Virus record (IMG/VR): IMGVR_UViG_3300009182_000100
Coordinates: 1-45,751 of that record
DNA length: 45,751 bases
Source: a virus
Reading direction: 5' to 3' (one strand)
Shown: positions 2,381 through 37,184 of the stretch, in pieces
How positions within the stretch are numbered: the stretch's first letter is position 1
How the letters are laid out: each line of letters begins with the position of its first letter
Translations under genes and position numbers: made by a program
Notes under the pieces: generated by a model
Databases searched by the model: none
What the model was told of the DNA's origin: nothing
What the model saw: the letters and a program-made list of their open reading frames with translations, nothing else

Positions 2381-2391
2381 AGTAGTATATA

Positions 2392-2915: not shown

Positions 2916-3512
2916 ATGTCTAAAAATACCAAACATGTAGGAAAGATGAAAAATAATGCCGCAAGAATTGCGATAATATATAGAACACTTCCTGGTGATG
3001 CATCGAGCGCATTAGTGGTAGGGACTAATGGATTGCCAGATGCATATCATGATTCATTAATGTCGTTACTCGAAAGTGATGCTGGGCAACAGGCTAATGA
3101 ATTAGCAGATCTGTTATCTGTACGAAGATTCCCGGATGGGGGGCCAATGCTAAGTTGGTTACATACTAACGGGCATTTGAAAAAAGTTCCAACTAATATG
3201 GTATTGATGACACAAAATGCAAAATCTCAAATTCAATTAGACGAACTCAATACAATGATCGCTGAAACAAGAGGTGTTACTCTCGAGGAGCTAGCAATCA
3301 CTGATGGTAATACTTTACCTAAAAAGAAAACAACAAACACAACCACTAAAGAAATTGTGTTACCTAAAGATCCAGAAACAAATACTCTTCCAACAAATGC
3401 CTCAGATATGAGATCATTAGCTGACAAGTTATTTAAAGAAGCCCAAAATTTACGTAAACAGGCTGATGTTTTAGATCCTCCAAAGAAAAAAACTAAACCA
3501 GTAGAAGCTTAA
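2916..3512 (+). CDS. Hypothetical 198-aa protein with Lys-rich C-terminus
   Basis: An unrecognised 198-residue soluble protein. The first ~130 residues look like a folded domain (including FPDGGPMLSWLHTNGHLKKVP). A Lys/Thr-rich linker and a helical segment (MRSLADKLFKEAQNLRKQAD) end in a basic tail. Its last base overlaps the thyA start (TAATG), which indicates translational coupling with thymidylate synthase. It starts 11 bases after the previous gene. There is no signal peptide or membrane segment. Function unknown. Confidence 0.65.
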   Translation: MSKNTKHVGKMKNNAARIAIIYRTLPGDASSALVVGTNGLPDAYHDSLMSLLESDAGQQANELADLLSVRRFPDGGPMLSWLHTNGHLKKVPTNMVLMTQNAKSQIQLDELNTMIAETRGVTLEELAITDGNTLPKKKTTNTTTKEIVLPKDPETNTLPTNASDMRSLADKLFKEAQNLRKQADVLDPPKKKTKPVEA

Positions 3513-7094: not shown

Positions 7095-8867
7095 TTATAT
7101 TTTTATATGGTAAAAAATTGATGAAGTTACTGATGCAGTTGTTGAAGTAGTAACATTTAGCAAATACGGAACCCTAAATGTTCCACCTGAGCCAACTCCG
7201 TATCTGGTTCCTATTACATTATATAAATTACCATAGGTACCCACTTGCTGATATGCGGTGCCGTCACATAATAAGAAAGAACTCGAAACAGTCGATGTTC
7301 CAGACGGAATGATCATACCTGTGTTCATTATTGCAGAATATATATCAGATAAAAAGTTTTTCTTGGAAATACTTTGAAGATCTGTTGCATTAGTAGAAGT
7401 ATCTAAAACTAATAGTGTTTGATTTGCATTAGTAGTAGAAGTAGATCCGCCAACCGGAGAATTAATAGCCGACCTATCTAATGTAGTTGTCATTGTTACA
7501 GATGTAGAACCGTTAAATCCTACTGCAAGTGTTGAGGTTGAATGTCCGGAAATTTGAAAATATCTAGTAGTTTCTAAGGTTGTTGCAGTTGTAACAGATC
7601 CAAAAATTCTAACATATGTAGTTGCACTACCTATATTTTTTACAAATATTCGTTCAAACGGCATTGCTGCTGACCCAATTGCCTGTGTTTGTGTACTGGG
7701 AATAATATTAGCACCAACAGTTAATAAATTAGATATTGTTGTTAACCCTAAAACATTTAAATTACCCGATACTGCTGCATTACCACCAATTGATGCAGAT
7801 CCATCCAACGTTAATCCTATGGTACTTACTGATGAAGTTGTTATTCTTATATTATTTTTAAAAGTAGCAGTACCACCAACTGATAATACTACATTTTCAA
7901 CTGTTGAAGTATTAATACCTATGTTACCGTATCCATTCGATCCATTGAAAACTATATAAGAGTTATTATTAATTCCTATTTTTAACGAAGATGATGAATT
8001 ATTAAAATTGATAACAGCACCTGAATTAACTGTTGTATATAATTCTAATTCCTTGGCGGCAACTCCGGAGGTGCTGGGTCTTCTAACAAATAAACCTTGA
8101 GTAGATTCAACAATGAGTGATCCTCCCATTAGTTGTCTTTGAGAAGACGGCCACGTGTTTTTTAAAACTTCGCTACCTTTAACTAGTACTCCATTTGAAA
8201 TTTCCAAAGACGATGCTCTGTCTGCTAACCCATTAAATTTTGCAGAAATTTTATAATTAAGATTTATACCAATACTTAAACTAGAAAATCCATCAATAAC
8301 TGTTCTAGGAGTAAACACATTATAAGATATTATCGATATAACTTTGCCATTAACCCAATTTAATAATACCGGAAACAACTCTCCAAAATTACTTTGTAAT
8401 GTAACACTTTCGACACCTGTTTTAGCAATACCTGTAGACACAGACGGACCTACTAATTTCCATGTGTTACTATACCTAATAAAAACTTGAGTATTACCGG
8501 TATCGACCCAGACATCACCTTCTACAAGATTTACACCATATTCAATACTAGGATCATTTGCTTGTTGATATATTCCATTGGCGCTTGGCCAGCGGGCACT
8601 TGAAATTTTACCATTACTAATTCTTAATACACCCCGTGCAGGATTACTAGTATCATACCATAGTTGACCTGCTATGGGACTTTCAGGAGCATTGGGACCA
8701 GCAAAATTTTCTAATAATTTTAGAAAATTCTGGGCCAGTATCTGTCCATATCCGGGATACCCTTGCCCAACTAAATTTAAACTAGTGCTATAATTATCAA
8801 CTATAGGACCTTCAATAACTATGACATTAGTTTTGCCAGGATCAGAAAATTTAAGTGTATATGCCAT
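7095..8867 (-). CDS. Tail fibre with C-terminal tail-collar domain, paralogue 3 (590 aa)
   Basis: Third paralogue and the longest. The N-terminal module reads LVGQGYPGYGQILAQNFLKL, PIAGQLWYDTSN, and GDVWVDTGNTQVFIRYSNTW. The centre is repetitive beta-rich sequence (for example GTATFKNNIRITT, GNAAVSGNLNVLGLTTISN), typical of fibre shafts. The last ~70 residues form a phage tail-collar domain: GMIIPSGT...FLLCDGTAYQQVGTYGNLYNVIGTRYG...TFRVPYL. Tail-collar domains occur in T4 gp12 and many adhesins. It probably contributes to cell attachment; the receptor is unknown. Adjacent genes are separated by one or two bases. Confidence 0.82.
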   Translation of the reverse strand: MAYTLKFSDPGKTNVIVIEGPIVDNYSTSLNLVGQGYPGYGQILAQNFLKLLENFAGPNAPESPIAGQLWYDTSNPARGVLRISNGKISSARWPSANGIYQQANDPSIEYGVNLVEGDVWVDTGNTQVFIRYSNTWKLVGPSVSTGIAKTGVESVTLQSNFGELFPVLLNWVNGKVISIISYNVFTPRTVIDGFSSLSIGINLNYKISAKFNGLADRASSLEISNGVLVKGSEVLKNTWPSSQRQLMGGSLIVESTQGLFVRRPSTSGVAAKELELYTTVNSGAVINFNNSSSSLKIGINNNSYIVFNGSNGYGNIGINTSTVENVVLSVGGTATFKNNIRITTSSVSTIGLTLDGSASIGGNAAVSGNLNVLGLTTISNLLTVGANIIPSTQTQAIGSAAMPFERIFVKNIGSATTYVRIFGSVTTATTLETTRYFQISGHSTSTLAVGFNGSTSVTMTTTLDRSAINSPVGGSTSTTNANQTLLVLDTSTNATDLQSISKKNFLSDIYSAIMNTGMIIPSGTSTVSSSFLLCDGTAYQQVGTYGNLYNVIGTRYGVGSGGTFRVPYLLNVTTSTTASVTSSIFYHIKI

Positions 8868-12080: not shown

Positions 12081-15000
12081 TTAGTATCCTTCCAAGTTTT
12101 CGCCGTTTTCGTCAGTCAATGCAATACCATTGGCATAAAGTATTTTATCCCCTCCATAGAAATACATATCCGGCAATGTAGCAGAACGTTGACGCAAGAA
12201 TTGTGCTCTATTACCCCGTGTATCAATTGAATTTGAGTCACTGAACAATGAGGTTGATGTATTTTCGTTCCATAATTTGCCTGTTCTCTGAATAACAGTT
12301 ATTCGTGTACCTGTATTAATTGTTTCATTAATATTTAATATTAAAGTCTGTGTTGCAGTAATTATACTAAATTCAGGTAAAAGAGTAGTTATGCTATTTG
12401 GTTGGGCATAATACGAAACTGATTTATCATGGACGTCTAGTGAAGTTTTTCTTAATCGGCGACCGCCATAATAAACTTCTACTTGATCAATTGCTGCTGG
12501 AGGATTTACCATTGTACTGGTAGTTAACAATTGTATTCCGCTTGAGAAATTAGAAACTGAAGCAGGTAAAAATACTCCAGACACATCTCCCGATGAATTC
12601 ACACTATAATTAGTAAGAGTGTTTGTTAATGTACTGATAATATATGTATTAGTGTTTGAACTATTGATATGTTGTATATTAATATTTTCTTCAGTATTAA
12701 TTTTTTGATTAATACTTTGATCAATAACTGTTGTGTACTGATCTGAAAATTTAGCAGGCCCTGTTCCTAATGTGCCTCTTCTTAACCCACTTAGTACATT
12801 ACCATCTTTAGCAGTGTATTCAATTCGTTCCCCGTCGAGTAATATAACACCGGGTAATCTTAAAGTAGGATTAGGCTGGAATAAATGATCTCCATCTTCA
12901 ACAAAAATTTGAGTATCAGTATATTGTAACGGTTGTGATAATCTAGTAGAAAAATATGTTGACAATCTTGAAAAATATTGACGATTGAACATATCGGAAA
13001 ACATTCTATAACCTAGTATAAGTTGACCAACAGACGGAGGGTTTACAACAGTAATAATAACATTAGCGTTGTTTCCTATTTCTATAGATTCAGCGAATAC
13101 AATTGTTCTATAATCATCGAGCACTTTATAATCATAACCTGCAATTAACCACTGATTATTTGCTGTAATCCATACAAATGAGTCATTATATACTATGCCG
13201 CCCCTTAAAGAAACAGATCGTGCATTATTTAAAGTAAACCGTTCTGTTCTAATCATTGTATTATCATGGTCAGTAAATGAAGTTATTTTTACAGTACCTG
13301 TACTAATCGCCGATGTGAGATTTAATTGTGTACCAGTAATGATATATTCATAATCCATTAATGGCATTACAGCTATTGCATCTCCATTAGTTATAGTGGG
13401 TAAAGCAAGTGTAAACGTTTGATTTATACCATTAATTGAAAAGTCATATCCAGGACGAAGCTCTTCTCCATTTACAAATACTTTAACATTATCTAAATTA
13501 TACACAGAAGGTCTGCTATTAACGGGGTCAATTGCAAAAGTCGTTATGTTGTTAGAGATTTTGTAATAAGTTACCCATGGAGGTAATAACCTAGTTCTAG
13601 TTGATGTTGTTAAAATCTCAACTATTACTTTATCACTTACAGGTTGGACACTTCTAATTGTAGAATCAAGTGCAAACGTTGACGTTGACGTTGCAACTGT
13701 AAATAATTGTTCATGCACTCGATTAAATTTAGGAAGTAATCTATTAAAAAACCATGCTTCAACATCATATATATTCCCAGGTGTTAATCCCTGTAGTTGA
13801 ACTGATGCTCGGTTGTTCGTTGATGATACCGGTTTTAATATATATCCAAAAGAATATCCTTGCCCAATAGCAGTAGACGGACCCACTTCAATGCCATTGA
13901 ATAGAACATATACACTTCGTACATCATCAATATACAAAGAACTTTCAACTACAATGACCCAATTACCAGGATTAGCATTATCATAATCCGGAGTAGTTGA
14001 TTTGAAATTACTATCGGTTGTTGCATCCGACCCGACTGTAATATATGTATATCCCACACGTATATTATTTGGTTGAGCCGGTATTACTATTTCATCTCCT
14101 ATAATAGAGTATTGTGTGTTCTTAGTAAAATTTTCAGAAGCTACCCTGTCAAATTTTATTCCATTACCGTATACTAAAAATCCAGCAGGAGTTTGATATA
14201 AAAAGTTTAATTTAGCTCTGGTATTAGATAAAGTTTTTCCTAAAACTCCTATTACACCAGTCATTACAAATGGGTAGGAAGGAGTTGATACGGTATAAAC
14301 ATTAATACCCAATGCATCTCGAACCTGCCCCGGAACACATTCTTCTGGTGCATAACTATCTATAGCATTTAAAAAATTATTGCCATCAATAACAATATCT
14401 TCTGGTCTGTATCCTATTATTTTAGAATTGCTAAAGTCAGGAATTGAATCTGAGTTTATTAGGCTATCTAAATAACCATTTGTTCCCGGATTAGTTTTCC
14501 AAAATTCTAATTGTGTGGAACCATATATTGATACTTGTAAATTGCCAGATACCATAACAACGGATGGGTTTAAAGTATATACTGTTACTACTGCCCTATT
14601 TTTACCGTCAGTGGATGGTGTTATCTTGTATACAATAGGATTATTCCAAGGAGGCAATGGCCAAGTAGAATAATCTACGCTGCCGCCGGCAATTCTGTTA
14701 TCTCCGCCCGGAGCACCAGTACTTACAATTGTAGAAGCAGTAGTACTTAAAACAATTTTAGCTTCTTTTGCAGTATTATAATATACTCCAGTTTGGATAG
14801 TTATTGAAGATGTAGATGCCACTGTTACAGTATTAATATATTCTAATAATCTACCATTTAACGGGATATTTTTAATAATACTTAGTAGTCTAAATGCAGG
14901 TGGTATTTTTGAAGCCGGTGCCTCGCCAGTTGATTCATAGTAATATGGTATATTTGATACTGTTCCATTAGAATTATAATAAGGTTCGTCCCAAAATGCA

Positions 15001-18000
15001 GATGCTGTACTACTTACCGCATATCGTAAACGAGTAATAATTGTATTATCATTAACAATCTGTTGTATCTCATATCCGGTACTAAATGAATCATCGAGGA
15101 ACGCCTCTACGTCAGGAAGAGGCTGGGCACTATAATAAGTCGGTGTTCCCCAATATATAGGTGCGGTAGAAGTGATAATGATTCCACCGCCTGTTGTTTG
15201 CCCGGTAATTCGGGCCGGCGTATATAACCCTGTATTTGTAGGAATTCTTGTTAAATCTTTATTAAATATCGCTGGATCAAAGAGTTGCAGATAACTATAT
15301 CCCATTCCGGAGACCACTGACGAAAATCCAGTTACTGTATTATCTGTTTTAATTGCTGTCCATGTTGAGGTAGTCCCACCTAATGACGAGCTAAAATATG
15401 GAAGAGGAATAGTTATTGACACTACTCCTGTGGTTGTAAAGTTAGTGTTAATTCTGATTCCACTGATTCCATTTCCATATAATCCACGTACCCCCGTTAA
15501 TGATATGGAATCATTTACTTCGAGACTTGTACCAATCAATCCTGAAAGAACAATGGTCAATGTAGAATTAAAGGCTGTGCCGGATGAATATACCCTAATG
15601 GGATATAAGGTAGGAGCACCACTACTAAACGATATGCCATCTTGAAAAACTGTTGATATTGTTGTATTCTTTCTAAAATATTCACCAGGGTTGCTACCTA
15701 CTACTGATAGTTGCATTCCGGCTACTAGCCCTGTTGAATCCGCTAGTTGGACACCTTCGTACCCTTGGTTCAACGGAGAAAGAAATGTATCTATTATTTT
15801 ATAATCACTAATTGAATCATACCATGATATAGTATCATACGGAGTATCTAGATTATCCCAATTTGAAGATTGGTTAAATGTAAGTCCTTGAACTACTGTA
15901 CCAGGAAACTCTGCTCCAGAGATTAATAATGGTAATTCGTTACCTGGCATACTATCAGTAGGATCGTATAAGGCAGTTATTCTGTCAATGGCATTATATA
16001 ATTTTATATTTTTAACATATGAAATTTTAAATACTTGACCAAACGACGGAAGCTGATTTAAAAATATAAATTTAGCATAATGTCTAATTTCTTGAGGAGT
16101 TAACGAACTATTAACAACACTTGTATAATATCTATAGCGATGGTCTACTGGTTTTTCTCCTTCCCAAGAATTTTTAGGAAACATTGCGGTAACATTGGTC
16201 GGGTTACTTTTAATGTCGGTTTGATAATATTCAATTGTATAATCTGTAGAAAATATTAATTTTCCATTAAGCAACGGAACAATTTGTGTTTTGTCTGCAG
16301 AAGGCAACCATGATAATGTGAATTTATTGGTTACACCGTCACAAATAAATTCATCAGATGCATTTAAATCTGTTAAATCACCAACTAATGAAACTCTATC
16401 AAATTTCATACCAATAGTATTTTCTCTAACTGTATCATTAAGCATTATTACTGATACTCTAGCAACATCGGTAACTGCTCCTCCACCCGTAATAGTTACG
16501 CTAGGTGCAGTTATATATCCACTACCTGGATTGGTAACTATTACTTCATATAGACTACCATTTCTAATATATGCATCTGCGGTTGCACCGGTTCCTGTAT
16601 CACCTGTTGCGGAAACAATGGATACTATAGGTCGTTGTGTATAACCTGATCCTACATACCCAACCTTTATTAATCCTACATATAATTTATAATTATTATT
16701 CCAATCTTTCCAAGGAGTTGTGGTTATTAATCCTGTAGTAGCAGTTGATACAGGGACTATATCAAAAGAATTAGTTGTTCTGTTATAAACTGAAGGGAAA
16801 TCAAAATCAGTTGTGGATAAATTGGCCTGTTCTAAATTGCTATATATTGATGAGTAGCTTCTTATCTTAGTACGATACGGTTTAATTTCATTAATGTATT
16901 TTTCAAAATATAACTCATTGTTCAATTGATATACTGGATGTTGATTCAATAATCCGATATTATGTGTTACATTAATAAATGATGTTTTAAATGCCCAATC
17001 TAATAATTTTTGTTCAGTTAGGGCATACTTTACGGCAGTAAAAAAGAACAAATTCCAGTTTATTTTTAATTCATTAATAAAAATATTATCACGCAATGCC
17101 ACAAGAATATAATATATTTCTAAGTCGGGAGTCTCATCATATGAAGTTTCATCAATATCAGATTTATCATATGCATATTTTCCTAAATTAAAATCCCATA
17201 ATGTGTCAAGTAATTTAATTGTACCATTTTCTTTATATATAATATTATATGAAGGTGTAAAATTTCCATTGTTGGATGTCTTTTCAAGTATAATAAATGA
17301 ACCGTCACCTCCATTGTTAACTTGTACATAATTACCAACTTCAATATCAGTAATAGAAGGTAGTGCAAATAAATCTGATATGGTGTAATTAACTGATTTA
17401 AATTTATTAAAAGTGTCAGATTGCCAATCAATTATTTTCCAAAATAAGGTAGTATTATATTGTTGAGTATGTACTTTAACCCAAGATCGTTTTGTATAAT
17501 CAAAGGCGTGTTTTGTCCATTTATTTCCACTTGTACTATTAATTTTTACAATGGCAGTATGTGGTCTTACAATTGCACGTATAGGACCGCTAGGAAACTC
17601 ATTTCCCGAATTAGTTATTGTAACTGAAACTAATTTTCCATAATTATCTATTTCAGTTACAAATTCTGCGGAGATAGCACTATCTGTAAGTACAATAATT
17701 TTTGGAGAAATAATATATCCAAACCCCGGATCTGTAATAACTACACTTTTTATTTTTCCATTATCTGCATAACAAATTATTTCAGCTTGTTTATATTTTA
17801 TAGTATCTATTCCAAATAACGTATCAAGATCTTCAACTAATACATCATATTCATAAGATGCTGCTACGGGGATTTCTTCTTTCTTATTAAGATTTTCAAA
17901 CGAATAAATTCCAATAATTCTATTCTTTAACAATACAGAATTTACAAAAGATACTAAAGTACGTAATGCTTCTATTCTATTTTTAAATAATGTTTGTTGA

Positions 18001-21000
18001 GGTCTAATACCTATTCCATATCTATTTCTATCAGTTAATGATATACTAGGAACAAGATTGCCTAAGGAGTCATGTCCTATTAGACTGTCAAATAATTTTT
18101 TCTCTAATAATGTATTAGGAACTGATTTGAAATCATTCTCATTTAATAATACCCATTCCGTATGTTTTGGTATAATTGCATTATTATCAATTGCAATATT
18201 TGCATTAATTCTATTACCAATTAATAATGATTGTACATTAGCAAATGCGATTGCATTGGTCGATAATATTTCTATGAATTTTAAACCATTAGATACTGGA
18301 TCTGCAATATAACTAGCAACCTGATATCCACTTAATCTTCTATTTTTAATTCCAGGTAATGTAACCTTATTTTTAACCCAGAAATAATATACATTTTCAA
18401 AAGATCCTGTTACATTATTAAATAATTGTTTAATTGAAATTGCACTATTGTTAACATACTTCGGTTGTCCACTAATACCATTAATTAATCCTTTATTAGT
18501 ATCTGCCTGAGCTGCCCATTCACTGGGTAATAAATCTGATTTAACCCATTCATATACATCGATAGTTGCTCCTGGAAATAATTTACCCCAATTATTTTTT
18601 CTAAATATTTCATCGCCTTGTTCGTACCATTGATATTTTGCTGTGCTTAGATCCCACCATAGTTGGCCAATATGATCGTCTATCCAACTAGTTGCTGAAT
18701 CAACAATTATTCCTGCAAACCCGATTGAATATGTTGCTGGATCAAATGCTGCCCTATATGTTAATTCTTGATCAGCAAGTCCTGCAATTTTACCTTTTAA
18801 AGGATCAATAATATCTAAGTATTCTATAACTTCTTCTTTTAGGGTATCAATTAATGAAATTCGATGTATTCCAGAAACATCAACTGTATCTTCCTGTTTT
18901 CTTAATAATTTCCAACTTTGGCTAGCTGTATTAATTTTATTAAAAATATAAAATTTAGATTGATCAGTATTACTAACCACATCAGCTGCGGGAGCTCCAA
19001 CAAAAACATTATCATTAGTAACTACTAACGAAAATCCATATTTACTGCCGGATATCGTTCCAACATCATTTAATTCATCTGCCTGAATAAATTTTTCACC
19101 AATTTTATTATATAGGTATACTGTTCCGCCATCGGGTACACTACCATAAAATTTAGTTGATGAATTATCAAATGTAGTTTCGCCTATATTAGAATTTTTA
19201 TCAAATGTTTGAGTTTTACTTCTATTCTTTCCCAGTGCTCCAACACCGATAGTATTATTATCTTTACTAATAGATATAGAATAACCAAATTTTAAATCAC
19301 TAGCTGGTAGTGGATTACTTATAATTTGATCTAATGTAAACGTTGCAGCCAATGCTGTTCGTTCCTCCATATGCTGAGCATAGTCTTCTGGATATAATGT
19401 ATTATTTCGTACTATTAATTCATCAAAAAGACTTTTATCAGTATTACTAAATGCAATATCAGACGTTATTGTAAATGCAAGTCCTGCTGATCCGTTATAG
19501 TTGAGTGCTGTAACAGTCAATATATGTGTGCCCTGAGTAACAGATATTTCTCTACGAGTACCCGAAACTCCATATGCGTATGCAATTAATTCATTGTCCA
19601 AATACACAACTGCAAAATCATTAACGGATATTTCAAATATGAATGTACCGGTTCGATTAAACATAACAGAGGTTGAAAAATGTAGCACTGGTGCGCCGTC
19701 TGCATTCCATACCGCATGTCTCTGCATAAAATCATTCCATGAATAATCAGGATAGCCTGGACTTATTGGAGTTGTTGCTACAACAAATCCATAATCAGTA
19801 TCTGTGCTTCGTCGAGCACCCCTTAGGCCGTCTGCTAATTGTCTAGAATCTAAAACATTAAACTTTGTTCCTAACCCATTTTCCATCCAATATCTAATGT
19901 CAAACTCGTTGGGATATAATTGTGCGTCAGGGTGATTTTGATATGCACTAATTACTCTTGCCCTGGAATCTACTATAGGGGTTCCTTCATTTAATCCATC
20001 GTTAATAACTGCATCTACTGCTCGTTGTGCATCATAAATTGCTGCATCTTCAGGATGCGCTGACCTATATGTAATCCAATATTGATTAAATCCTGCAAGG
20101 CCATTAGTCATCCAGTATAAAATTGTTGTTTCCCCATAATATACAGGAGCTAATAAATTTTCTGCAAGAGCCAATATAACTTGGGCACGAGATGCTACAT
20201 ACTCAACTATATTTCCCAAATTTTTATATATTGCAACTTTACCATATGGCTCGTTGGAGTTCTTGGCATAAGGTGCAGAAATTAACATGTATGTTGCATC
20301 ATTTGAAATTGCAATATCGTACCCAAATTTGCCATTTGCTCCGAATGGGGAGTTAATAGTTTGTTCGAGCTGTAACTTATTATTATAAGTTTGTACTACT
20401 CCTCCCGTTGTAGATGCATTATATTCGGGCGCACTGATTGCAAACCCTCTAATACTGCCCACAATTTTATGACCCCAATTACTACCATTAGTTAATGTTA
20501 CGGCAACAGAGGGGCGTACCGATAATACATTTGTTAAATGTGCAAATCCTGTAATTGTTGCTGTTGAAGTTGCATTAGTTGCAGTTGTTAAATTTAATTT
20601 ATAAGCAAAAACATATCCCGTAGAAGAACCAGGAGCACCTACTAATAAAGTAGTCGAGGTTGTTGCAACAACTTGATTAATAGCAATTGAATAACCAAAT
20701 TTGGAATTAGTTGCCGTAGTAGTCAATTGACCATACGGATTTACCAACACAATGTTAACATCAATCTTTCCATGATCTTCAGATCTACTACTAATTTTAA
20801 CTAATCCCTCATTTTCCCAAGACTTTATTGCACCAGTACCTGTGCTTAAAATTACAGTACCCGTGCCTATTGAATGCGAGCTAATTGAACTTGCTAACGG
20901 TGCACCGGTGATATATAACTTTTTACCTATATCGTATTGTAGAGCGTGACCAAAGTCACTAACATGAGTTGAGGAAGCATATGTTTTATCATTTGAATTT

Positions 21001-24000
21001 AGGACATAATCATATTGACGTTTCCATTCATTGTTTACTCGATTGTAAACTTTAACTCTGCCATAATTATACATTGCAGGCGTATGCCAGTTGGGTGATG
21101 ACACCAGCAGTACTGGACTATCGTCAGATGCCCAAATAGACGATCCAAATTCTTGATCAAGTGGGGTACCTGCTGTGTTTACAACAGTTACCTTGTAATT
21201 TTTAATTTTTTCATAAACTTGCCATTTATTATCAGTACCACTATCGATCCATATCTTATCACCTATATTAAATTTCAACAGGTCGCCAATTTCTGATAAG
21301 TGGGCAAGATTTGGATATCTAACATTTTCAAATCGATATAATCCACCATAATTTATTAATTTAGCATTTTCAATACTAGTCAGCGAGGAGGCAACTGCAA
21401 ATTGATTTATAGATGGAATAGCCGTAACGATATAAACCCCATTAACTTGTTCATTAAATCTGACTACAGAAATAATGTCGCCTATAGTAAGATTATGATG
21501 TCCATCAGTAACAAATGTTATTTCGCTAGTCGGCGCACTGACAAATACTCCGGTTACTTTTGATAATTGTTTAGTATATCGATAAACTGCCCAGTCACTA
21601 TTCTCTAAAAATCCTAGCCATACAGTAATCCCATCTTGTATCATGGCGTTATTTGCAATATCTAATAAACTGTTTTTACTATATGCCGTGGTTGTAACAT
21701 CATCAAGGCGGACATAACCCGCAGTAGTTAATACTATATTGTTATTAATTAATGTTCCAGAAATGGACGGTATTGTATTAGCTGCAGAATAATCATCAGG
21801 AGTCAATAACAACTTTGAAGTTGTTACATAATTAATTAATGGATTAGCATCAACTGGAGTGTTATCAACAAATTTAACAACGTATGGATTTTCTAAAGCA
21901 GTTCCCTCAGGTAACGTAAATTCTATTTCATTATAAGTTTCAAAACTTCCATAGTTTCCTATTCTAAATGCCCATTCTTCTTTATATGATAATTCTCCCT
22001 TATTACTAAATTGCTCTGCTTTTGACAGTTTATTAACTGCATTTTTAGTTCCTTTATCTTTTATAAATCCTTGATAAAATTTATATTGGCTAATAGGGTT
22101 AGAAAAAATATTATTTAAATAACTTCTAGGAGTATATCCAGTAAGATGCTGTGCCAATCGTTGCTGACCAGAATCAAAATTATCAATATTTAAACTATAA
22201 AAATCTTCAAATTGATCTACCTTATAATCAAAATTAGGTAACAGTTTTGATATAGGTTTACTGGGCAACTGCGCCCATTTAGTAAAATTAAATTCTTTAG
22301 AAGAATCAATTTTTGTCAAAGACTGATAATATTTTCCATTATATCGCACAACTGCACCAGGTACGTATAGTTTATAAGATTGCCAATCAGTAATATTAAC
22401 ATCATCAAAAACAAACCCAGGACTGAATAAATCACCATTCCAGTTTTTAGTTCTAAATCCCGAAAGTTTAATACGTTGTTGTTTATAACCCGTAGTAATA
22501 TCATATATAGTATCATTGAATACTGTATAATTATTAAAAACTAATGCATGTTCTTTTTGTACAGAATTTAATATTGCAAAAAATAATCCTTCATTAGCAT
22601 CTGTAGTTTTAATGGTACAAACAGTATCTTCTCTAGACATAGTAAATCTATCGATAGGATATGGTTTTCCGTCAGCTTTTAATAAATTATATTCGTATTT
22701 TTTACCAGATATATCATCCACTACAGAATTAGGAAAATTATATTTTAAACTATTTGCAAAAGGAGATAATGTAATTAAATTGCCATCTGCAAAATTTTGA
22801 GTAGTCCAATATAAAAATTCTTTGCCTGTAAATTTCCAATTTAAAATTTCGTTGAGATCAGTATTAAAGTCATCAAAAATAAATCCTTGTTTTTCAAGAA
22901 ATGCGCCATATCCTATGATTATATCATATACTTCTTGTACTGAAGAAAATACAGTACCATATGGAATTTTAACTATGACATTTTCAAATGATTTAGAATG
23001 TTGTGCAGATGCTCCCCCCGTAACTGGTAACTCTGGCAATTGCTGATATAATGATAGATCAAATGATGTTTCTGCATTGTGCCCTATCTTAACTCTATAA
23101 AATCTATTATTATATCTTACTAATTGCCCTTGTTTATAATATCGTGTAGTAGATGAACTAGCAGATGTTATATCAACTGAGCTCAGGCCCGCATTAACAT
23201 TGTTTACAACATTAGACCAATCAGTAAATTCTTCAGACACGCCGCCAACTTTAACTGCACCATCTACAGAAGTTTTTATCGGTTTTAATATTTCAAAATA
23301 AGGATTTTTAATATCGTATCCTTTAATTTTAAAATTACCATTAGAACGTTGAACTATAATTCCGGATATTCTAGAAGTAGTAATGGGATTGCTAACATTT
23401 AAAATTAAAGAATAATCTTCCGACGGTAATATAACTCCAGGACTTGTTGATGTTGGATTAATTGAATCAATAATAATTTGCAATTTGTCTTTAGAAACAA
23501 ATCCAGCCATCTTATGAAACAAATTAATATCAAGATAATCTATATCCTGTCTTAATTTTTTAATATAATGTTGATTATCTCGGCGACCATTTTCTGCAAC
23601 ATAAACTCCATAACCAGCAATCTGATTATCATTTTCGCCGTCAATTATTAAATTTTTAAGATTTAAATAATTTGTATTATATATAACTTGACCTGCTGAA
23701 TTTATTGTAGTTCTACTTAAATCATATTGTGTGGCACAAAATTGCACAGGATTAAGAATAGCCAGTGCCGCACATACTGCAAATGGATAATTACTTGTTA
23801 ATATGGTCCAAGAATTATCTACAGGCCCGCCGCTTCCAAATTTCCAGTTAGCAGTTTTATCAAAATATGTATTATCTAATGTTAACAGATTAATTAAATT
23901 TGGTAATAGATTTCCATTAACATCAACTGGAATAATATTTAATAGTCCTGGGCGAGCATAATTGGGAAGATACGTATTTGTTCCTCTAACATATCCATTT

Positions 24001-27000
24001 TGCAAATCAGTCCATAATAGTGTATTAGTTGATCTATACGGCGGAAATCCGTAATATCGAGTCCACCAAGAGGGCCGATCAAAAAATCCAAGCATCCGAA
24101 AAGGGACCAAATTTGGACGCGGCGTCTCATAAAAATAGTACATAAATCTAGTTATAGAGACAGGTTTCTTAAATATCTTATCAAGTGCTCCGTCATAATT
24201 CCAAGTTTCTTTACGTAGGGGATCAAATGTACTATTGGTTGTACTATCTAAACCATACGTCCCTGCCCATGTAGAAAAATCAGCTTCAATTATTTTATTA
24301 AAATCATCTTGATTATAATTTAAATTTCTAAATATCCCAGGTTGTGCTGCAATGGAATCATAAATTTTATTATTAAATCTAACTTTAATATTATTATAAA
24401 CACGTTTCTCATATTCTAAAATGATATTATCTCTATAATCTCCATATGGTAGATAAAAAGAACCATCGTGTGCCAAAATAACGAATTGAGCAATAGTAGT
24501 GCTTACGCTTACACTTACAATTGCAGGAACGGTGGCAGGATACATTCCTAATTTAGAAGGAGTGGGGGGAATATAACATCCGGTTGTATCTAAATAGCAA
24601 TCGATAGTTAATACGTCATTTACAGCCAATGGTACTATTATAGTTATTGAATTAGTAGTATCATCAAACTGGTATTCATTTCTAGTACCAATTAATTGAA
24701 TACCGTTACGATATACAATAACTGATTGAAAACTTAAACGATTAATATCAAAATTAAAATTAATCGGGTAAGAAACAATTGTAATATCAGTAATTGTAAT
24801 AGTTCTTACAATTTTATTTTTTCCATATCCTAACATATCAGACGTTCGATATAAAGAATTAATATCTTTTCCGTCATTTATAATAGTTAATGCTAAATCA
24901 AGTGCATCAGATGGGGACAAGTTACTATCAATTTCTTTAATTACTCTTAAAAAATTTAATTTAAATTGTTGATAATCCTTACCAGCATTTCTTATTGCGT
25001 TTACTACATTATGTTCTTTTTTTCCAAAAAAGAATTGTGCAAATACCAACGGGGTAGAGCTAATAACTAAGCGAGATCCGTATTTTGTGTAATTCGATAT
25101 ATCTCTTAAGTTATTAATAATACTACTACTGGTGTTATTGATCATTGTTGTCAAATGATCTGTTAATTCGCCCAATGTTAAACTATTTAAAGATTGATTT
25201 AATGGATTATGTGATAAACTAATAGGAGTTTCATAATATCCATTCTTATTAGGCATCTGGTCAGTAAAGATTTTTAATAATACAACATCATTAGCAGAAA
25301 ATGTAGAAGATGTTGTTACGTTGACCTGTTTAGCTGATGAAACTACTGTAATAGGAATTTTTACATTATTAATATATGCAAAAACAACTATATTTGTATT
25401 GATAGGTAAATCTAAACAAGTTAATGTTAATGTGTTTGTAGTAGCAACAATTGTTTGAAATTCTATTATAGGAATTTTATGTTCAACTCCAGGAGCCCAT
25501 ATATTAACCAGTGTACCATTTAATTTTAAAAATGTATCTCCTGTTGAGACCGCGGAGGGTATATTATCTGTTGTAATTAATATAGTATCTGCTATAAAAT
25601 AATTTTTAAACAGATAGCTATTACCATTAGTTTGATATTTTAATGGAAATCCTAATATAGTATCATTGTTTCCTGTTCCTATTTCATATCCAAAAATTTG
25701 ATTTCCTGTAAAATTATTAGAATCATTAATTTCTGTATAACTAATCCCAGCAGCATTAAACAAATCAAATAAAGGTGGTTGATTTATTTTTGTATGTTGT
25801 TGTGCATATATCCATTTAGTTGAAATGTTATCAAAATGCCAACTGGTACCGGACAAAGTAGATCCTAATTTTACAGTTAACGAATTTGAATTTACTGGCG
25901 TACTATCTAGAATTAATTTTAATATTGGGATCGGGCCTGTTATATCAAAATTAACTTTATATATTTTTCCACGAACATCATAATTAGTGTCAGCATTAAA
26001 AATTATTCGATGCCCTTGTTGAAGCTGAATCCCATCAACATAATATCCATAAGAATTATGTACTTGTGAAAATACATCAACTGTAGTAACATCAATCAAA
26101 TCAACATTTTGAACACTTGTAATTCCAAAGTTATATAATTTTAAATTTGCTCTAAATTCAATGATGGGACGTTTTGCGATAGTATCAAGTGGAATGATAT
26201 TAGGTAAATTGTTTATTTCATTTGAAATTTTAATAATGTCTTTATGAAACCATCTATTATATTGTGACCAGGAATTCATGTCAACACTGGCTCTATTAAT
26301 AGTAATATATTCAGGTGTCAACGGTACCGGTCTATCTGCATCAAAAGAATAATTATCAAAAGTAGAAGTGTCAAATGTTTCATTTAATACTGTGGATATT
26401 AGTCCGTATGATGATAAAGAATTAAACTCGATTAATATAATTGAAGACCCGACTCCTTCTACTATATACTCTTTATTCCTATACTTTAATTCAACGTTGG
26501 AAGAAAATAAAAGTTTCATGCCATTACTTAATGCATATCCATTACTCATTACATATGATTGTTTTCCAATTATATTATTTTCAATTGTAAAATTTTCTAA
26601 ATTACTAGGAAATTGAATAGCCACAGGCCCGATAGGTAGCCAACAATAATTGTTAAAATTAACAAGTTTATCCCAATCAATTAATGGGTCAAAAGAATAT
26701 GTGTTAGATTTAAATAATTTATTAAGATCGTTAGTTAATCCCCCCTGATTTTTTATTTCATTAATTAAGTCATCATATGCAATTACATCAGTTATATTAT
26801 TAATTGAATCTTTTAAAACTAATGCAGGTTCGAGAGCATAGCTATTTCTTAATTCGGAAGTATCTGTTAGATAAGAATCAGTTAATGGATTATAACTTGG
26901 TGTTAATTTAGACCCCACGAACCCGTCAATTCGTTCAACTTGGGGCGTTTGAATTAATTGATCAATTGTACTGGCTAAAAATTTAGAATTTTTAGCAGTT

Positions 27001-27047
27001 CGCAAAAATTCTGGTAATAAATTAACTGATTTTTTATTGTCTGCCAT
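12081..27047 (-). CDS. Giant virion protein (4988 aa), baseplate/fibre mosaic
   Basis: A single uninterrupted gene of about 15 kb directly after the gp6-like gene, where T4 has genes 7-12. The N-terminus (LLPEFLRTAKNSKFLASTID) resembles large virion proteins of T4-like aquatic phages (recollection only). Visible modules: two Y-x2-G-x2-V-x-YN-x2-Y-Y carbohydrate-binding-like segments near residues 1300 and 1558; FG-GAP-like propeller repeats around 2035-2280 and 2580-2700 (KFGYSI..., VGAPGSS); a PA14-like domain around 2430-2530; a GQLWWD motif near 2795 like the one in the three fibre paralogues; GSGY/GFGY repeats near 3100 and 3460-3500; and DGERIEYTAKDGN near 4737. The start overlaps the gp6 stop region with GCGGAA upstream. 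Probably a baseplate-linked adhesin; possible fusion of T4 gp7/8/10-like roles is speculation. Confidence 0.85.
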   Translation of the reverse strand: MADNKKSVNLLPEFLRTAKNSKFLASTIDQLIQTPQVERIDGFVGSKLTPSYNPLTDSYLTDTSELRNSYALEPALVLKDSINNITDVIAYDDLINEIKNQGGLTNDLNKLFKSNTYSFDPLIDWDKLVNFNNYCWLPIGPVAIQFPSNLENFTIENNIIGKQSYVMSNGYALSNGMKLLFSSNVELKYRNKEYIVEGVGSSIILIEFNSLSSYGLISTVLNETFDTSTFDNYSFDADRPVPLTPEYITINRASVDMNSWSQYNRWFHKDIIKISNEINNLPNIIPLDTIAKRPIIEFRANLKLYNFGITSVQNVDLIDVTTVDVFSQVHNSYGYYVDGIQLQQGHRIIFNADTNYDVRGKIYKVNFDITGPIPILKLILDSTPVNSNSLTVKLGSTLSGTSWHFDNISTKWIYAQQHTKINQPPLFDLFNAAGISYTEINDSNNFTGNQIFGYEIGTGNNDTILGFPLKYQTNGNSYLFKNYFIADTILITTDNIPSAVSTGDTFLKLNGTLVNIWAPGVEHKIPIIEFQTIVATTNTLTLTCLDLPINTNIVVFAYINNVKIPITVVSSAKQVNVTTSSTFSANDVVLLKIFTDQMPNKNGYYETPISLSHNPLNQSLNSLTLGELTDHLTTMINNTSSSIINNLRDISNYTKYGSRLVISSTPLVFAQFFFGKKEHNVVNAIRNAGKDYQQFKLNFLRVIKEIDSNLSPSDALDLALTIINDGKDINSLYRTSDMLGYGKNKIVRTITITDITIVSYPINFNFDINRLSFQSVIVYRNGIQLIGTRNEYQFDDTTNSITIIVPLAVNDVLTIDCYLDTTGCYIPPTPSKLGMYPATVPAIVSVSVSTTIAQFVILAHDGSFYLPYGDYRDNIILEYEKRVYNNIKVRFNNKIYDSIAAQPGIFRNLNYNQDDFNKIIEADFSTWAGTYGLDSTTNSTFDPLRKETWNYDGALDKIFKKPVSITRFMYYFYETPRPNLVPFRMLGFFDRPSWWTRYYGFPPYRSTNTLLWTDLQNGYVRGTNTYLPNYARPGLLNIIPVDVNGNLLPNLINLLTLDNTYFDKTANWKFGSGGPVDNSWTILTSNYPFAVCAALAILNPVQFCATQYDLSRTTINSAGQVIYNTNYLNLKNLIIDGENDNQIAGYGVYVAENGRRDNQHYIKKLRQDIDYLDINLFHKMAGFVSKDKLQIIIDSINPTSTSPGVILPSEDYSLILNVSNPITTSRISGIIVQRSNGNFKIKGYDIKNPYFEILKPIKTSVDGAVKVGGVSEEFTDWSNVVNNVNAGLSSVDITSASSSTTRYYKQGQLVRYNNRFYRVKIGHNAETSFDLSLYQQLPELPVTGGASAQHSKSFENVIVKIPYGTVFSSVQEVYDIIIGYGAFLEKQGFIFDDFNTDLNEILNWKFTGKEFLYWTTQNFADGNLITLSPFANSLKYNFPNSVVDDISGKKYEYNLLKADGKPYPIDRFTMSREDTVCTIKTTDANEGLFFAILNSVQKEHALVFNNYTVFNDTIYDITTGYKQQRIKLSGFRTKNWNGDLFSPGFVFDDVNITDWQSYKLYVPGAVVRYNGKYYQSLTKIDSSKEFNFTKWAQLPSKPISKLLPNFDYKVDQFEDFYSLNIDNFDSGQQRLAQHLTGYTPRSYLNNIFSNPISQYKFYQGFIKDKGTKNAVNKLSKAEQFSNKGELSYKEEWAFRIGNYGSFETYNEIEFTLPEGTALENPYVVKFVDNTPVDANPLINYVTTSKLLLTPDDYSAANTIPSISGTLINNNIVLTTAGYVRLDDVTTTAYSKNSLLDIANNAMIQDGITVWLGFLENSDWAVYRYTKQLSKVTGVFVSAPTSEITFVTDGHHNLTIGDIISVVRFNEQVNGVYIVTAIPSINQFAVASSLTSIENAKLINYGGLYRFENVRYPNLAHLSEIGDLLKFNIGDKIWIDSGTDNKWQVYEKIKNYKVTVVNTAGTPLDQEFGSSIWASDDSPVLLVSSPNWHTPAMYNYGRVKVYNRVNNEWKRQYDYVLNSNDKTYASSTHVSDFGHALQYDIGKKLYITGAPLASSISSHSIGTGTVILSTGTGAIKSWENEGLVKISSRSEDHGKIDVNIVLVNPYGQLTTTATNSKFGYSIAINQVVATTSTTLLVGAPGSSTGYVFAYKLNLTTATNATSTATITGFAHLTNVLSVRPSVAVTLTNGSNWGHKIVGSIRGFAISAPEYNASTTGGVVQTYNNKLQLEQTINSPFGANGKFGYDIAISNDATYMLISAPYAKNSNEPYGKVAIYKNLGNIVEYVASRAQVILALAENLLAPVYYGETTILYWMTNGLAGFNQYWITYRSAHPEDAAIYDAQRAVDAVINDGLNEGTPIVDSRARVISAYQNHPDAQLYPNEFDIRYWMENGLGTKFNVLDSRQLADGLRGARRSTDTDYGFVVATTPISPGYPDYSWNDFMQRHAVWNADGAPVLHFSTSVMFNRTGTFIFEISVNDFAVVYLDNELIAYAYGVSGTRREISVTQGTHILTVTALNYNGSAGLAFTITSDIAFSNTDKSLFDELIVRNNTLYPEDYAQHMEERTALAATFTLDQIISNPLPASDLKFGYSISISKDNNTIGVGALGKNRSKTQTFDKNSNIGETTFDNSSTKFYGSVPDGGTVYLYNKIGEKFIQADELNDVGTISGSKYGFSLVVTNDNVFVGAPAADVVSNTDQSKFYIFNKINTASQSWKLLRKQEDTVDVSGIHRISLIDTLKEEVIEYLDIIDPLKGKIAGLADQELTYRAAFDPATYSIGFAGIIVDSATSWIDDHIGQLWWDLSTAKYQWYEQGDEIFRKNNWGKLFPGATIDVYEWVKSDLLPSEWAAQADTNKGLINGISGQPKYVNNSAISIKQLFNNVTGSFENVYYFWVKNKVTLPGIKNRRLSGYQVASYIADPVSNGLKFIEILSTNAIAFANVQSLLIGNRINANIAIDNNAIIPKHTEWVLLNENDFKSVPNTLLEKKLFDSLIGHDSLGNLVPSISLTDRNRYGIGIRPQQTLFKNRIEALRTLVSFVNSVLLKNRIIGIYSFENLNKKEEIPVAASYEYDVLVEDLDTLFGIDTIKYKQAEIICYADNGKIKSVVITDPGFGYIISPKIIVLTDSAISAEFVTEIDNYGKLVSVTITNSGNEFPSGPIRAIVRPHTAIVKINSTSGNKWTKHAFDYTKRSWVKVHTQQYNTTLFWKIIDWQSDTFNKFKSVNYTISDLFALPSITDIEVGNYVQVNNGGDGSFIILEKTSNNGNFTPSYNIIYKENGTIKLLDTLWDFNLGKYAYDKSDIDETSYDETPDLEIYYILVALRDNIFINELKINWNLFFFTAVKYALTEQKLLDWAFKTSFINVTHNIGLLNQHPVYQLNNELYFEKYINEIKPYRTKIRSYSSIYSNLEQANLSTTDFDFPSVYNRTTNSFDIVPVSTATTGLITTTPWKDWNNNYKLYVGLIKVGYVGSGYTQRPIVSIVSATGDTGTGATADAYIRNGSLYEVIVTNPGSGYITAPSVTITGGGAVTDVARVSVIMLNDTVRENTIGMKFDRVSLVGDLTDLNASDEFICDGVTNKFTLSWLPSADKTQIVPLLNGKLIFSTDYTIEYYQTDIKSNPTNVTAMFPKNSWEGEKPVDHRYRYYTSVVNSSLTPQEIRHYAKFIFLNQLPSFGQVFKISYVKNIKLYNAIDRITALYDPTDSMPGNELPLLISGAEFPGTVVQGLTFNQSSNWDNLDTPYDTISWYDSISDYKIIDTFLSPLNQGYEGVQLADSTGLVAGMQLSVVGSNPGEYFRKNTTISTVFQDGISFSSGAPTLYPIRVYSSGTAFNSTLTIVLSGLIGTSLEVNDSISLTGVRGLYGNGISGIRINTNFTTTGVVSITIPLPYFSSSLGGTTSTWTAIKTDNTVTGFSSVVSGMGYSYLQLFDPAIFNKDLTRIPTNTGLYTPARITGQTTGGGIIITSTAPIYWGTPTYYSAQPLPDVEAFLDDSFSTGYEIQQIVNDNTIITRLRYAVSSTASAFWDEPYYNSNGTVSNIPYYYESTGEAPASKIPPAFRLLSIIKNIPLNGRLLEYINTVTVASTSSITIQTGVYYNTAKEAKIVLSTTASTIVSTGAPGGDNRIAGGSVDYSTWPLPPWNNPIVYKITPSTDGKNRAVVTVYTLNPSVVMVSGNLQVSIYGSTQLEFWKTNPGTNGYLDSLINSDSIPDFSNSKIIGYRPEDIVIDGNNFLNAIDSYAPEECVPGQVRDALGINVYTVSTPSYPFVMTGVIGVLGKTLSNTRAKLNFLYQTPAGFLVYGNGIKFDRVASENFTKNTQYSIIGDEIVIPAQPNNIRVGYTYITVGSDATTDSNFKSTTPDYDNANPGNWVIVVESSLYIDDVRSVYVLFNGIEVGPSTAIGQGYSFGYILKPVSSTNNRASVQLQGLTPGNIYDVEAWFFNRLLPKFNRVHEQLFTVATSTSTFALDSTIRSVQPVSDKVIVEILTTSTRTRLLPPWVTYYKISNNITTFAIDPVNSRPSVYNLDNVKVFVNGEELRPGYDFSINGINQTFTLALPTITNGDAIAVMPLMDYEYIITGTQLNLTSAISTGTVKITSFTDHDNTMIRTERFTLNNARSVSLRGGIVYNDSFVWITANNQWLIAGYDYKVLDDYRTIVFAESIEIGNNANVIITVVNPPSVGQLILGYRMFSDMFNRQYFSRLSTYFSTRLSQPLQYTDTQIFVEDGDHLFQPNPTLRLPGVILLDGERIEYTAKDGNVLSGLRRGTLGTGPAKFSDQYTTVIDQSINQKINTEENINIQHINSSNTNTYIISTLTNTLTNYSVNSSGDVSGVFLPASVSNFSSGIQLLTTSTMVNPPAAIDQVEVYYGGRRLRKTSLDVHDKSVSYYAQPNSITTLLPEFSIITATQTLILNINETINTGTRITVIQRTGKLWNENTSTSLFSDSNSIDTRGNRAQFLRQRSATLPDMYFYGGDKILYANGIALTDENGENLEGY

Positions 27048-30665: not shown

Positions 30666-31103
30666 TTATTGTGCCGTTAACCCAATTTTTTGATCAAACA
30701 TTAATTTTAATGTAGATGTTTGATCAGTATTACGCATACTGAGAGCAACTTCAATCAAAAAACCTCTTTCATATTCATTAACTTGTATTTGAGTAGGATA
30801 TACTCTGGGATCAAAATTACAAATTTCACGAATATCGTTAGTTAATAAATTTTTAATTTCGGGAGTTAATGGTTCCATTAATATATCCCATATGATTGTA
30901 CCAAATTTAGGATTCATTAATCGCTGTCCCTTTCGGGTATTAAAATGATTTAGCAAATCTTGTTTGATTAAATCAAAATCATATAATTTAGATCCTCTGT
31001 TGTCTGGATTTGTCGTGCTAAATCCTTTATAATAATGTGTTAAACTATTAGTATGTTGACTGTTATAATCAGTTACATTAATTTCTAAATTCTTATAAGG
31101 CAT
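30666..31103 (-). CDS. 25: Baseplate wedge protein, gp25-like
   Basis: A 145-residue member of the GPW/gp25 family, a sheath-nucleating wedge component shared with contractile injection systems. The core shows FNTRKGQRLMNPKFGTIIWD followed by LMEPLTPEIKNLLTNDIREI and FDPRV, the region that carries the EPR-type signature in the family. The length is close to T4 gp25 (132 aa). It lies 10 bases after the spike gene and 46 before gp6, the expected neighbours. The start is supported by GGATAA upstream, overlapping an AATAAATA sequence. Confidence 0.93.
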   Translation of the reverse strand: MPYKNLEINVTDYNSQHTNSLTHYYKGFSTTNPDNRGSKLYDFDLIKQDLLNHFNTRKGQRLMNPKFGTIIWDILMEPLTPEIKNLLTNDIREICNFDPRVYPTQIQVNEYERGFLIEVALSMRNTDQTSTLKLMFDQKIGLTAQ

Positions 31104-31113: not shown

Positions 31114-33399
31114 TTATCCGCCAGAACCAGTCTTTATAGGGTTTCCACTGCCATCGACTAAAATGCCGCCGGCACCTGTACCCACTGTTTTACTTTGTAG
31201 TTGCCCAAGGAAACATTCATAAAATCCTTTTTTCTTAGCATATATATCAGGGGTACAAAATCCCACTGCATGTATTGCTTTTTCAACATAATCAGGAGCA
31301 GTTTGTGCTGCTTTACATCTATCTAACATATACTTAACGCTAACTTCAGCTGCTATAGTTGGGTCATTTAATAATTTTGGATTAGATAATAAATCTTGAC
31401 TAATCATAGCACCGTATCTAGCATAATTACTTCTACCAGTTAATTGAATATATCCTCGACCTATAAAATTGCCGCCGTCACCCGGTTGTGTGTTTCCTAA
31501 CCCCTTACCTTTTGATGTTGTATAACCATACAAAAATTCAGGTAATGAATTATTGGGATTTCCTGCATATTTCTGTGCAAGATCTTTATCTCCTTTAAAC
31601 ACGCTGGGAAATACTTGTAACAATCTATCAGCAGAATAATTAAATCCCTCTTCTACTAACTTCCAACGACATTCTCCTCCTGCAATACCCAACAATGCAG
31701 CCACTGCATTTGGACTTGTAATTCCGTATTTGGCACATGCCGCTTTAAGGGCGCCGATGCCTGCCTGGGCACCTGCTGCATTAATATCTTTAGCATATTC
31801 CGGCGAACATGTTCCTGGAATAACTTCAGCTGAATTGGCAGGTTCTTGTTTACCAACGGCGGGATTGGGGGGAATGCCAGCGGCACTTCTATCTGCTAAT
31901 GTAACATCTGTAGCTTCTGATGAGTATTTTATTGGGTCAATATTTTCATGTTGGGGCCAAGGTTCGTGTGTTGGCACACGTTGCATGATAGTTTTAATTG
32001 TTCCTGTATTATAGAATTTTGCATCACTCCATCCATACGGAACTTGTTTATCTGGTAAACTGAATATAGGAAGTTTAGGCGGAACATCTGCAGAACTTGC
32101 TATGTTAGGTGCTGCTGCACTGGGTCCGTTTAAGTGAATATTTGACCCCGATACTAGTATATTACTATTTGCACCCAGATTAAGAACCCCTGCGGTACCT
32201 ACATTAATATTACCTTCAGCAGCTATACTGAAGACGCCCTGTGCTGCTAAATTAACAATAGCACCTGACTCAAGTTCATAATTTGACCCAATTGTTATGT
32301 TTGCAGTATCTCCTATTGTTTCATTATGTGATCCCCTAACAGCAATTTTTTGATCTCCATCGACTACTAGGTAGTTATATCCAGTAACATTAGTTTCCAT
32401 GTTTTTTCCGGCAAATACATTTATGTTACGGCCTGCTTCAAAATTGATATCTCTATCTGCTCTAAAATTAAAATCTTGTTTAGTATGGATACTAACACTA
32501 TCAGTGGCAAAAATATCAATTTTTCCATTTGAAGTTAATTCAATCCAAGCAGTGCCCTTACTGTTACCTATGTAAATTAAATCATGACTGTTGTGCATTA
32601 ATATTTGATGGCCGGTGCGTGTTCTTAATCGAACAAGCTCATTTTGTCCGTTAACATCACCGTCGTCCATGACAAACGTACTTCCGCCGAGCCTACTAAC
32701 AGGCGCTTGTTTATTTCCTTCATACCCTAACTTACCTGTTTTTGCACCAGAGCTAGTATCTAACGGACCAGGTGTTGATATACCAAAAACATGACTAGGC
32801 AGTTCGCGCCTGGCACTAGATGAAGTCACACCGCGGATAGTGTCCAATAGTAATCCTTGTTGAACTAGTCTATCTGCAAATGGGTGTACTGGTTTGTCAA
32901 ATCTTTCAGGGTTAGGATTCTCTAATTTTTTTGATCCTTTATGAAACTCTGCAACAGGCAAATAATCAGTACCATATTTTCTACGTTGTTCTTCAGTGAT
33001 TGCTACTCGCTTACTGGCTGCTATTCCCGGAATCATATGATTTTGGAATATATCATTAACACATCCTATCCAATATCCTTGATTAGGATCTCCATCAATG
33101 AATATAACCATAACTGTGGTTCCTATATCAGGAGGTATTGCCCAAAATCCGTAACTTTTTTGTACATCATTAAAATCACTGCTGTTTGTTCCTTCATGTC
33201 TGATTGATGTACTTCCTGCAAATGGACTTAGATAACGAACAGGATATGTTTCACCTTGTATTTTAGTTGAGCCAGGCAATCCTTTAATTAATGCAACTTC
33301 CATTCCTCCCATATAGGTTGGATCAAGATGATTTGTAACTTCAGCTAAGAATGGGCCCGGAGATGGGAGTGGTGCTCGTTTTCTTGTTTCAATAGACAT
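31114..33399 (-). CDS. 5: gp5-like central spike with C-terminal GH19-type lytic domain
   Basis: The central tail spike that punctures the outer membrane and locally degrades peptidoglycan. Residues ~10-125 form the gp5-type OB domain (GPFLAEVTNHLDPTYMGGM, and SYGFWAIPPDIGTTVMVIFI, GDPNQGYWIGCV). Residues ~260-430 are triplet beta-helix repeats (DINFEAGRNINVFAGKNM, GNINVGTAGVLNLG). Residues ~540-750 resemble GH19 chitinase/endolysins: ECRW with candidate catalytic Glu576, EEGFNYSAD, then GGNFIGRGYIQLTGRSNY. In T4 gp5 (575 aa) the lysozyme domain lies between OB and helix; here the lytic module is at the C-terminus and of a different family. No Shine-Dalgarno is apparent before ATG 33399. Substrate is probably peptidoglycan; chitin-like polymers are less likely. 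Confidence 0.92.
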   Translation of the reverse strand: MSIETRKRAPLPSPGPFLAEVTNHLDPTYMGGMEVALIKGLPGSTKIQGETYPVRYLSPFAGSTSIRHEGTNSSDFNDVQKSYGFWAIPPDIGTTVMVIFIDGDPNQGYWIGCVNDIFQNHMIPGIAASKRVAITEEQRRKYGTDYLPVAEFHKGSKKLENPNPERFDKPVHPFADRLVQQGLLLDTIRGVTSSSARRELPSHVFGISTPGPLDTSSGAKTGKLGYEGNKQAPVSRLGGSTFVMDDGDVNGQNELVRLRTRTGHQILMHNSHDLIYIGNSKGTAWIELTSNGKIDIFATDSVSIHTKQDFNFRADRDINFEAGRNINVFAGKNMETNVTGYNYLVVDGDQKIAVRGSHNETIGDTANITIGSNYELESGAIVNLAAQGVFSIAAEGNINVGTAGVLNLGANSNILVSGSNIHLNGPSAAAPNIASSADVPPKLPIFSLPDKQVPYGWSDAKFYNTGTIKTIMQRVPTHEPWPQHENIDPIKYSSEATDVTLADRSAAGIPPNPAVGKQEPANSAEVIPGTCSPEYAKDINAAGAQAGIGALKAACAKYGITSPNAVAALLGIAGGECRWKLVEEGFNYSADRLLQVFPSVFKGDKDLAQKYAGNPNNSLPEFLYGYTTSKGKGLGNTQPGDGGNFIGRGYIQLTGRSNYARYGAMISQDLLSNPKLLNDPTIAAEVSVKYMLDRCKAAQTAPDYVEKAIHAVGFCTPDIYAKKKGFYECFLGQLQSKTVGTGAGGILVDGSGNPIKTGSGG

Positions 33400-36887: not shown

Positions 36888-37184
36888 TTAACCTAATACT
36901 TGTTTTAATGTTGATGCTTTAGGAAGATAGAGTTTAACTCCTGCTACTAAGTCAAATACCGGATCTTTAATAATAGATTTATTTCTTACTGCAAAAACCC
37001 ACCATAATTTAGCATCTTTATATAAGTCGTAGGCTAATAAATCAGGGCGATGCTCGTAGGTTGCAGTTAACTGAAATAGAAGATCATCAGTTTGATTGGG
37101 TATATCTCTAAAATTAATAACATCAAGATAATTATTTGTTATTGATGTATTATAATAGGGACTGGTCTTTGCATAGGTAGTCAT
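36888..37184 (-). CDS. 53: Baseplate wedge protein, gp53-like
   Basis: A 98-residue protein resembling the gp53/LysM-like baseplate wedge family, which clips wedges together. The signature run is YEHRPDLLAYDLYKDAKLWW followed by VFAVRNKSIIKDPVFDLVAG and LYLP, the typical 'dLAydlYgd..lWWviA..N.i.dP' pattern. It is half the length of T4 gp53 (196 aa), consistent with the compact form in many contractile phages. Its start overlaps the upstream stop by one base and has AAGGA nine bases ahead. Confidence 0.88.
   Translation of the reverse strand: MTTYAKTSPYYNTSITNNYLDVINFRDIPNQTDDLLFQLTATYEHRPDLLAYDLYKDAKLWWVFAVRNKSIIKDPVFDLVAGVKLYLPKASTLKQVLG

Follow-up and report, generated by a model that had tools for sequence, protein, structure and literature searches.

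A giant protein in the gp7 position of a phage tail operon belongs to a known jumbo-phage baseplate family and contains gp10-type domains

The 4988-aa protein encoded in the tail operon of the window, a complete IMG/VR fragment record of 45,751 bases, is probably (with a probability of roughly 0.6) a modular wedge scaffold that occupies the gp7 position and has built-in modules for the docking of fibres. It belongs to phrog_10938, an established family of giant baseplate proteins that many jumbo phages and hundreds of environmental phages are known to carry; what is new is that gp10-type, docking-like domains lie inside the chain. A sequence-only reading had proposed that wedge and fibre roles between gp7 and gp12 are merged in this polypeptide, and this idea is partly supported: gp10-type domains do lie within the chain, but it gives no gp7 or gp8 signal by profile or among the structural matches of the 2221 residues modelled, and the fibre genes are separate and lie downstream. 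A single chain may perform tasks that in T4 are divided among several proteins.

In the preferred model, one giant chain per wedge would take the place of gp7, so that six chains, about 3.3 MDa in all, would be present per virion. The N-terminal helices would join each chain to the gp6 pair, and the chain would then run outward through the baseplate. The gp10-type domains might dock the fibre proteins encoded downstream, by analogy with phage CBA120, in which the gp10-like XD domains of TSP4 are the platform for other tailspikes (PMC10253068). On the host-facing side would be the two rare inserts (residues 2281–2570 and 3881–4050) together with the carbohydrate-binding module, the first of these inserts being a candidate for an exposed, host-specific part. 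The features on which this model is built are collected in Table 1.

Table 1. Coordinates in the window of the giant gene, the modules of its product and the neighbouring tail genes
Feature	Coordinates	Strand	Evidence
Fibre-like paralogue, ~130-aa N-terminal domain in common	4404..5681	-	
Fibre-like paralogue, ~130-aa N-terminal domain in common	5693..7093	-	
Fibre-like protein with C-terminal tail-collar domain	7095..8867	-	PF07484 E 5.6e-9
Giant virion protein gene, 4988 aa, 555.7 kDa	12081..27047	-	
Residues 4515-4711, tandem gp10 domain 2-3-like modules (T4 gp10 185-424)	12915..13505	-	hhalign prob 79, E 1.6e-5
Residues 3881-4050, insert rare among relatives	14898..15407	-	
Residues 2690-3760, second conserved core	15768..18980	-	AlphaFold2 mean pLDDT 74, pTM 0.42
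Residues 3557-3685, beta-domain like TSP4 187-250 and T4 gp10 157-256	15993..16379	-	VIA-align Z 8.5 (rmsd 1.5 over 64) and 6.7 (rmsd 3.1 over 75)
Residues 3470-3523, GSGY beta-repeat common to cyanophage gp14 and gp8	16479..16640	-	
Residues 3085-3149, two GSGY beta-repeats	17601..17795	-	
Residues 2281-2570, insert in <15% of relatives (except about 2311-2330)	19338..20207	-	
Residues 2237-2266, FG-GAP-type repeat	20250..20339	-	Pfam PF14312 E 1.2e-5 (whole-protein score; no single stretch passes alone)
Residues 1555-1578, carbohydrate-binding module 5/12	22314..22385	-	Pfam PF02839 E 7e-7
Residues 763-827, gp10 domain-2-like module	24567..24761	-	hhalign prob 43, E 2.5e-4
Residues 526-606, small beta-domain like CBA120 TSP4 and T4 gp6 172-275	25230..25472	-	VIA-align Z 7.4 (rmsd 1.8 over 59) and 5.1 (rmsd 2.5 over 66)
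Residues 12-132, weakly like helical domain of neighbouring gp6	26652..27014	-	hhalign prob 80, E 1.4e-5 (large gap in alignment)
gp6-like baseplate wedge gene, 1189 aa	27050..30619	-	phrog_10646 930 bits; phrog_219
gp25-like gene	30666..31103	-	PF04965 E 1.8e-10; phrog_43
gp5-like hub with GH19 lysozyme/chitinase-type domain	31114..33399	-	
gp53-like gene	36888..37184	-	phrog_7145 E 1.5e-23; PF11246 slightly below cut-off

The gene is, as had been read from the sequence, one uninterrupted frame, which starts with ATG and runs for 4988 codons with no internal stop; the opposite strand has stops throughout. At the base composition of the window, the chance of an open frame of this length is ~10^-161. 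When the gene was compared with those of three relatives, dN/dS was 0.14–0.59 in every comparable 500-codon block, a sign of purifying selection over these stretches. The product has a pI of 5.3 and contains 10 cysteines. No direct DNA match of the window was found among phages.

On the same strand, the gp6-like, gp25-like and gp5-like genes, a gene for a 1161-aa virion protein, the gp53-like gene and a gene for a 234-aa virion protein lie upstream of the giant gene. Downstream are genes for a 281-aa protein (with residues 71–280 covered by its best profile match), a subtilase, a 221-aa protein and the three fibre-like paralogues, which have ~130 N-terminal residues in common. Two relatives retain the 221-aa gene and the fibre genes downstream of the giant gene, each with four fibre-like paralogues rather than three. 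The statement that separate gp7, gp8 and gp10 candidates are missing from the block was too strong with respect to gp10/gp12-like proteins, because one of the fibre-like proteins ends in a tail-collar domain.

Membership in phrog_10938 is indicated by a score of 920 bits over four stretches that span residues about 3–3455, and at least 552 relatives of the giant protein are present in IMG/VR. In 28 of the 28 IMG/VR contigs examined, a single frame of 4047–5454 aa holds the profile matches, the N-terminal match extending back past a stop in one of them. The first 1600 residues matched 57 phage records in a tblastn search, nearly all of jumbo size, and the homologues of cultured jumbo phages (RaK2, PA5oct and Atu_ph07 types) are of 3326–4555 aa. 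The size is therefore ordinary for the family, and the earlier view that such a frame is rare in phages has to be given up, the more so because gp7 of the cyanophage P-SSM2 has 5195 aa. The window protein is longer than the cultured homologues and has inserts of its own; homologues longer than it were seen only among the IMG/VR relatives.

The placement of the giant gene right after a gp6-like gene, which had been pointed out for the window, is confirmed there and recurs among the relatives, with gp6 immediately upstream in 79 of 80 IMG/VR loci. RaK2, PBECO4, CBB, phAPEC6, PA5oct, Atu_ph07, Phosso, AP-J-162, SCTP-2 and Vibrio 2.275.O likewise have a single giant frame in the slot after gp6, the N-terminal ~1600 residues of which are homologous to those of the window protein (25–28% identity where tested). 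In Atu_ph07, PA5oct, RaK2, Phosso and PBECO4, as well as in XbC2, the homologue comes immediately after a gene with a baseplate-wedge annotation; a large gene takes the place of gp6 ahead of it in SCTP-2 and Vibrio 2.275.O; and gene 58 of AP-J-162, next to the gene for a wedge protein of 1198 aa, has a 4455-aa product that has been classed among the structural proteins (PMC11242549). The family is widespread, chiefly in environmental phages, and is annotated only as "virion structural protein".

That the giant protein is part of the virion, as had been supposed, is supported in relatives by mass spectrometry. PA5oct gp355 is a virion protein according to an ESI-MS/MS note in its record, and 21 virion peptides have been reported for CBB_236, which lies beside the gp6 gene CBB_237 and is identified as a homologue from the gene numbering (PMC5259590). 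Similarly, 17 virion peptides came from phAPEC6 gp245 (382 kDa), which is taken to be a homologue in view of its size and of the wedge protein next to it, gp244 (PMC7247149).

Domains of the gp10 domain 2–3 type are found in the giant protein both by profile and by structure. Ten segments of the protein were aligned by hhalign with eight profiles of gp6, gp7, gp8 and gp10; against a best E-value of 0.03 in 80 reversed-target nulls, the modules at residues 4515–4711 and 763–827 matched gp10, and the N-terminal segment matched the helical domain of the neighbouring gp6 (Table 1). The gp10 match covers residues 185–424 of T4 gp10, but the N-terminal domain of gp9/10 (PF07880) has no match in the window. 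BLASTP of the giant protein against T4 gp6–gp12, gp14 and gp53 gave nothing significant.

AlphaFold2 models (46 sequences) were made of two segments of the protein, 2221 of its 4988 residues in all. The model of residues 1–1150 (mean pLDDT 85, pTM 0.81) matched a structural protein of Atu_ph07 over its full length in a viral library (TM 0.76), together with a handful of other full-length matches that are mostly unnamed or uncharacterized proteins, and neither model matched an entry of the PDB at an E-value of 0.001. In VIA-align comparisons, in which Z values of 5–8.5 on 60–75 residues are moderate and T4 chains were assigned to gp6 and gp10 by their length, the small beta-domains at residues 526–606 and 3557–3685 resemble TSP4 and T4 baseplate proteins (Table 1); the latter also matched T4 gp6 (Z 5.9, rmsd 2.4 over 75) and phi812 baseplate proteins (Z 6). 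In the region of residues 763–827, the structural match to TSP4 runs on to residue 821, the sequence module being 774–821. The best 14 VIA-align matches of the model of residues 2690–3760 all came from tail, neck or baseplate structures of phages. A sequence search of solved structures with the giant protein and two family profiles returned no wedge protein; the central family profile gave one tailspike match (E 2e-4). The structural comparison of the two models shows a moderate likeness to T4 wedge proteins through gp10-type folds, and no gp7 or gp8 fold is listed among their matches.

The profile comparison gave a similar picture, with gp10-type domains found and neither gp7 nor T4 gp8 found in any segment, although the same procedure aligned T4 gp8 with cyanophage gp8 (prob 98), gp7 with gp7 (96) and gp6 with gp6 (97). 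The giant protein matches neither Pfam Gp7 nor phrog_964, its hhalign probability against gp7 is below 10 (92–96 in the controls), and the KGIExS core of gp7 is not present. PF09215 (gp8) is absent from the window and its relatives, and in seven cultured-phage relatives no match was found to PF09215 or phrog_964 (gp7), both of which do match in T4 and P-SSM2; homologues of gp7 and gp8, which would speak against a merger, are thus not detected by profile in the genomes of these relatives. This absence fits a giant chain that would cover their roles, although strongly diverged genes would be missed as well. The combination of gp10-type domains with the lack of gp7 and gp8 by profile in seven relatives offers a testable picture of how jumbo-phage baseplates compare with that of T4.

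Some matches to other families are misleading, because a ~50-aa GSGY beta-repeat is common to otherwise unrelated tail and neck proteins, including gp14, gp8 and gp7 of P-SSM2. The match to phrog_460 ("head closure Hc2") was rejected on this ground, the repeat being shared with cyanophage gp14, as were the matches to phrog_438 (cyanophage gp8) inside the giant frames of relatives, which do not indicate gp8. Within the giant protein, the repeat at about 3456–3524 matches cyanophage gp8 (E 2.6e-5) outside the part of gp8 that aligns with T4 gp8.

A true fusion, in which diverged gp7, gp8 and gp10 domains in one polypeptide replace all three T4 proteins, would account for the giant gene in the gp7 slot, for the tandem gp10-type domains at residues 4515–4711 and for the lack of gp7 and gp8 matches in the seven relatives. 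It is unlikely, because no segment gives a gp7 or gp8 profile signal where T4–cyanophage controls reach probabilities of 92–98, and no such fold is among the matches of the modelled parts; an outer baseplate of six copies of a single ~556-kDa chain that replaces gp7, gp8 and gp10, with docked fibres, is accordingly doubtful to the same degree. A gp10 role is not proved by the small beta-domain fold, which is that of domains 2–3 of T4 gp10 and of the XD domains of CBA120 TSP4, and which occurs also in tail adaptors and tailspikes. If the protein replaced gp7 only, as a wedge scaffold like the giant gp7 of cyanophages, the unrelated beta-modules would be spacers or decoration with no gp10 role. 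Such a protein has a precedent in P-SSM2 gp7 (PSSM2_111), which is of the same size class in the same slot, between gp6 and a separate gp8 that has been kept, and which has small beta-modules, among them GSGY repeats, in common with the window protein. However, the gp10-type domains recur and match gp10 domains 2–3 in tandem, which makes this possibility decidedly improbable.

The likeness to P-SSM2 gp7 does not extend to a detectable common core. Profile–profile comparison matches the N-terminus of P-SSM2 gp7 to the C-terminal region of T4 gp7 (prob 91.5–95.7), and P-SSM2 gp7 keeps the KGIExS motif region of T4 gp7; in contrast, the window protein could be aligned in this way with neither the P-SSM2 core nor T4 gp7, the latter of which it resembles in genomic position but neither in sequence nor in profile. 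Giant proteins in the gp7 slot are therefore already known, from two apparently different families. That the chain is a tail-fibre or host-adhesion protein that merely adjoins gp6 is suggested by the carbohydrate-binding module, the FG-GAP-type match and the beta-rich modules, but is very improbable, since the linkage to gp6 is strict even between very distant phages, the chain has two long conserved cores and the fibre-like genes are separate. DUF4815 (PF16075), presumably the mark of VrlC-type proteins, has no match in the window or in any of the giant-family records searched, and an assignment of the giant protein to this type was rejected. VrlC has been proposed as a gp7 substitute in pelagi- and cyanomyophages (PMC7029224).

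The subtilase (S8) gene inside the tail operon (9568–11232, minus strand) has intact D, H and S motifs of the catalytic triad (VIIVDGH, HGAHVAG and GTSMASP). It was considered as a processing enzyme of the giant chain and rejected, because in two relatives it is not kept among the genes downstream of the giant one. In RaK2, PBECO4 and XbC2, an oppositely oriented gene for a ClpA-like ATPase directly follows the giant gene. Elsewhere in the window, two adjacent genes on the plus strand (42242–43362) may, judging from their sequence, encode homing-endonuclease-type proteins.
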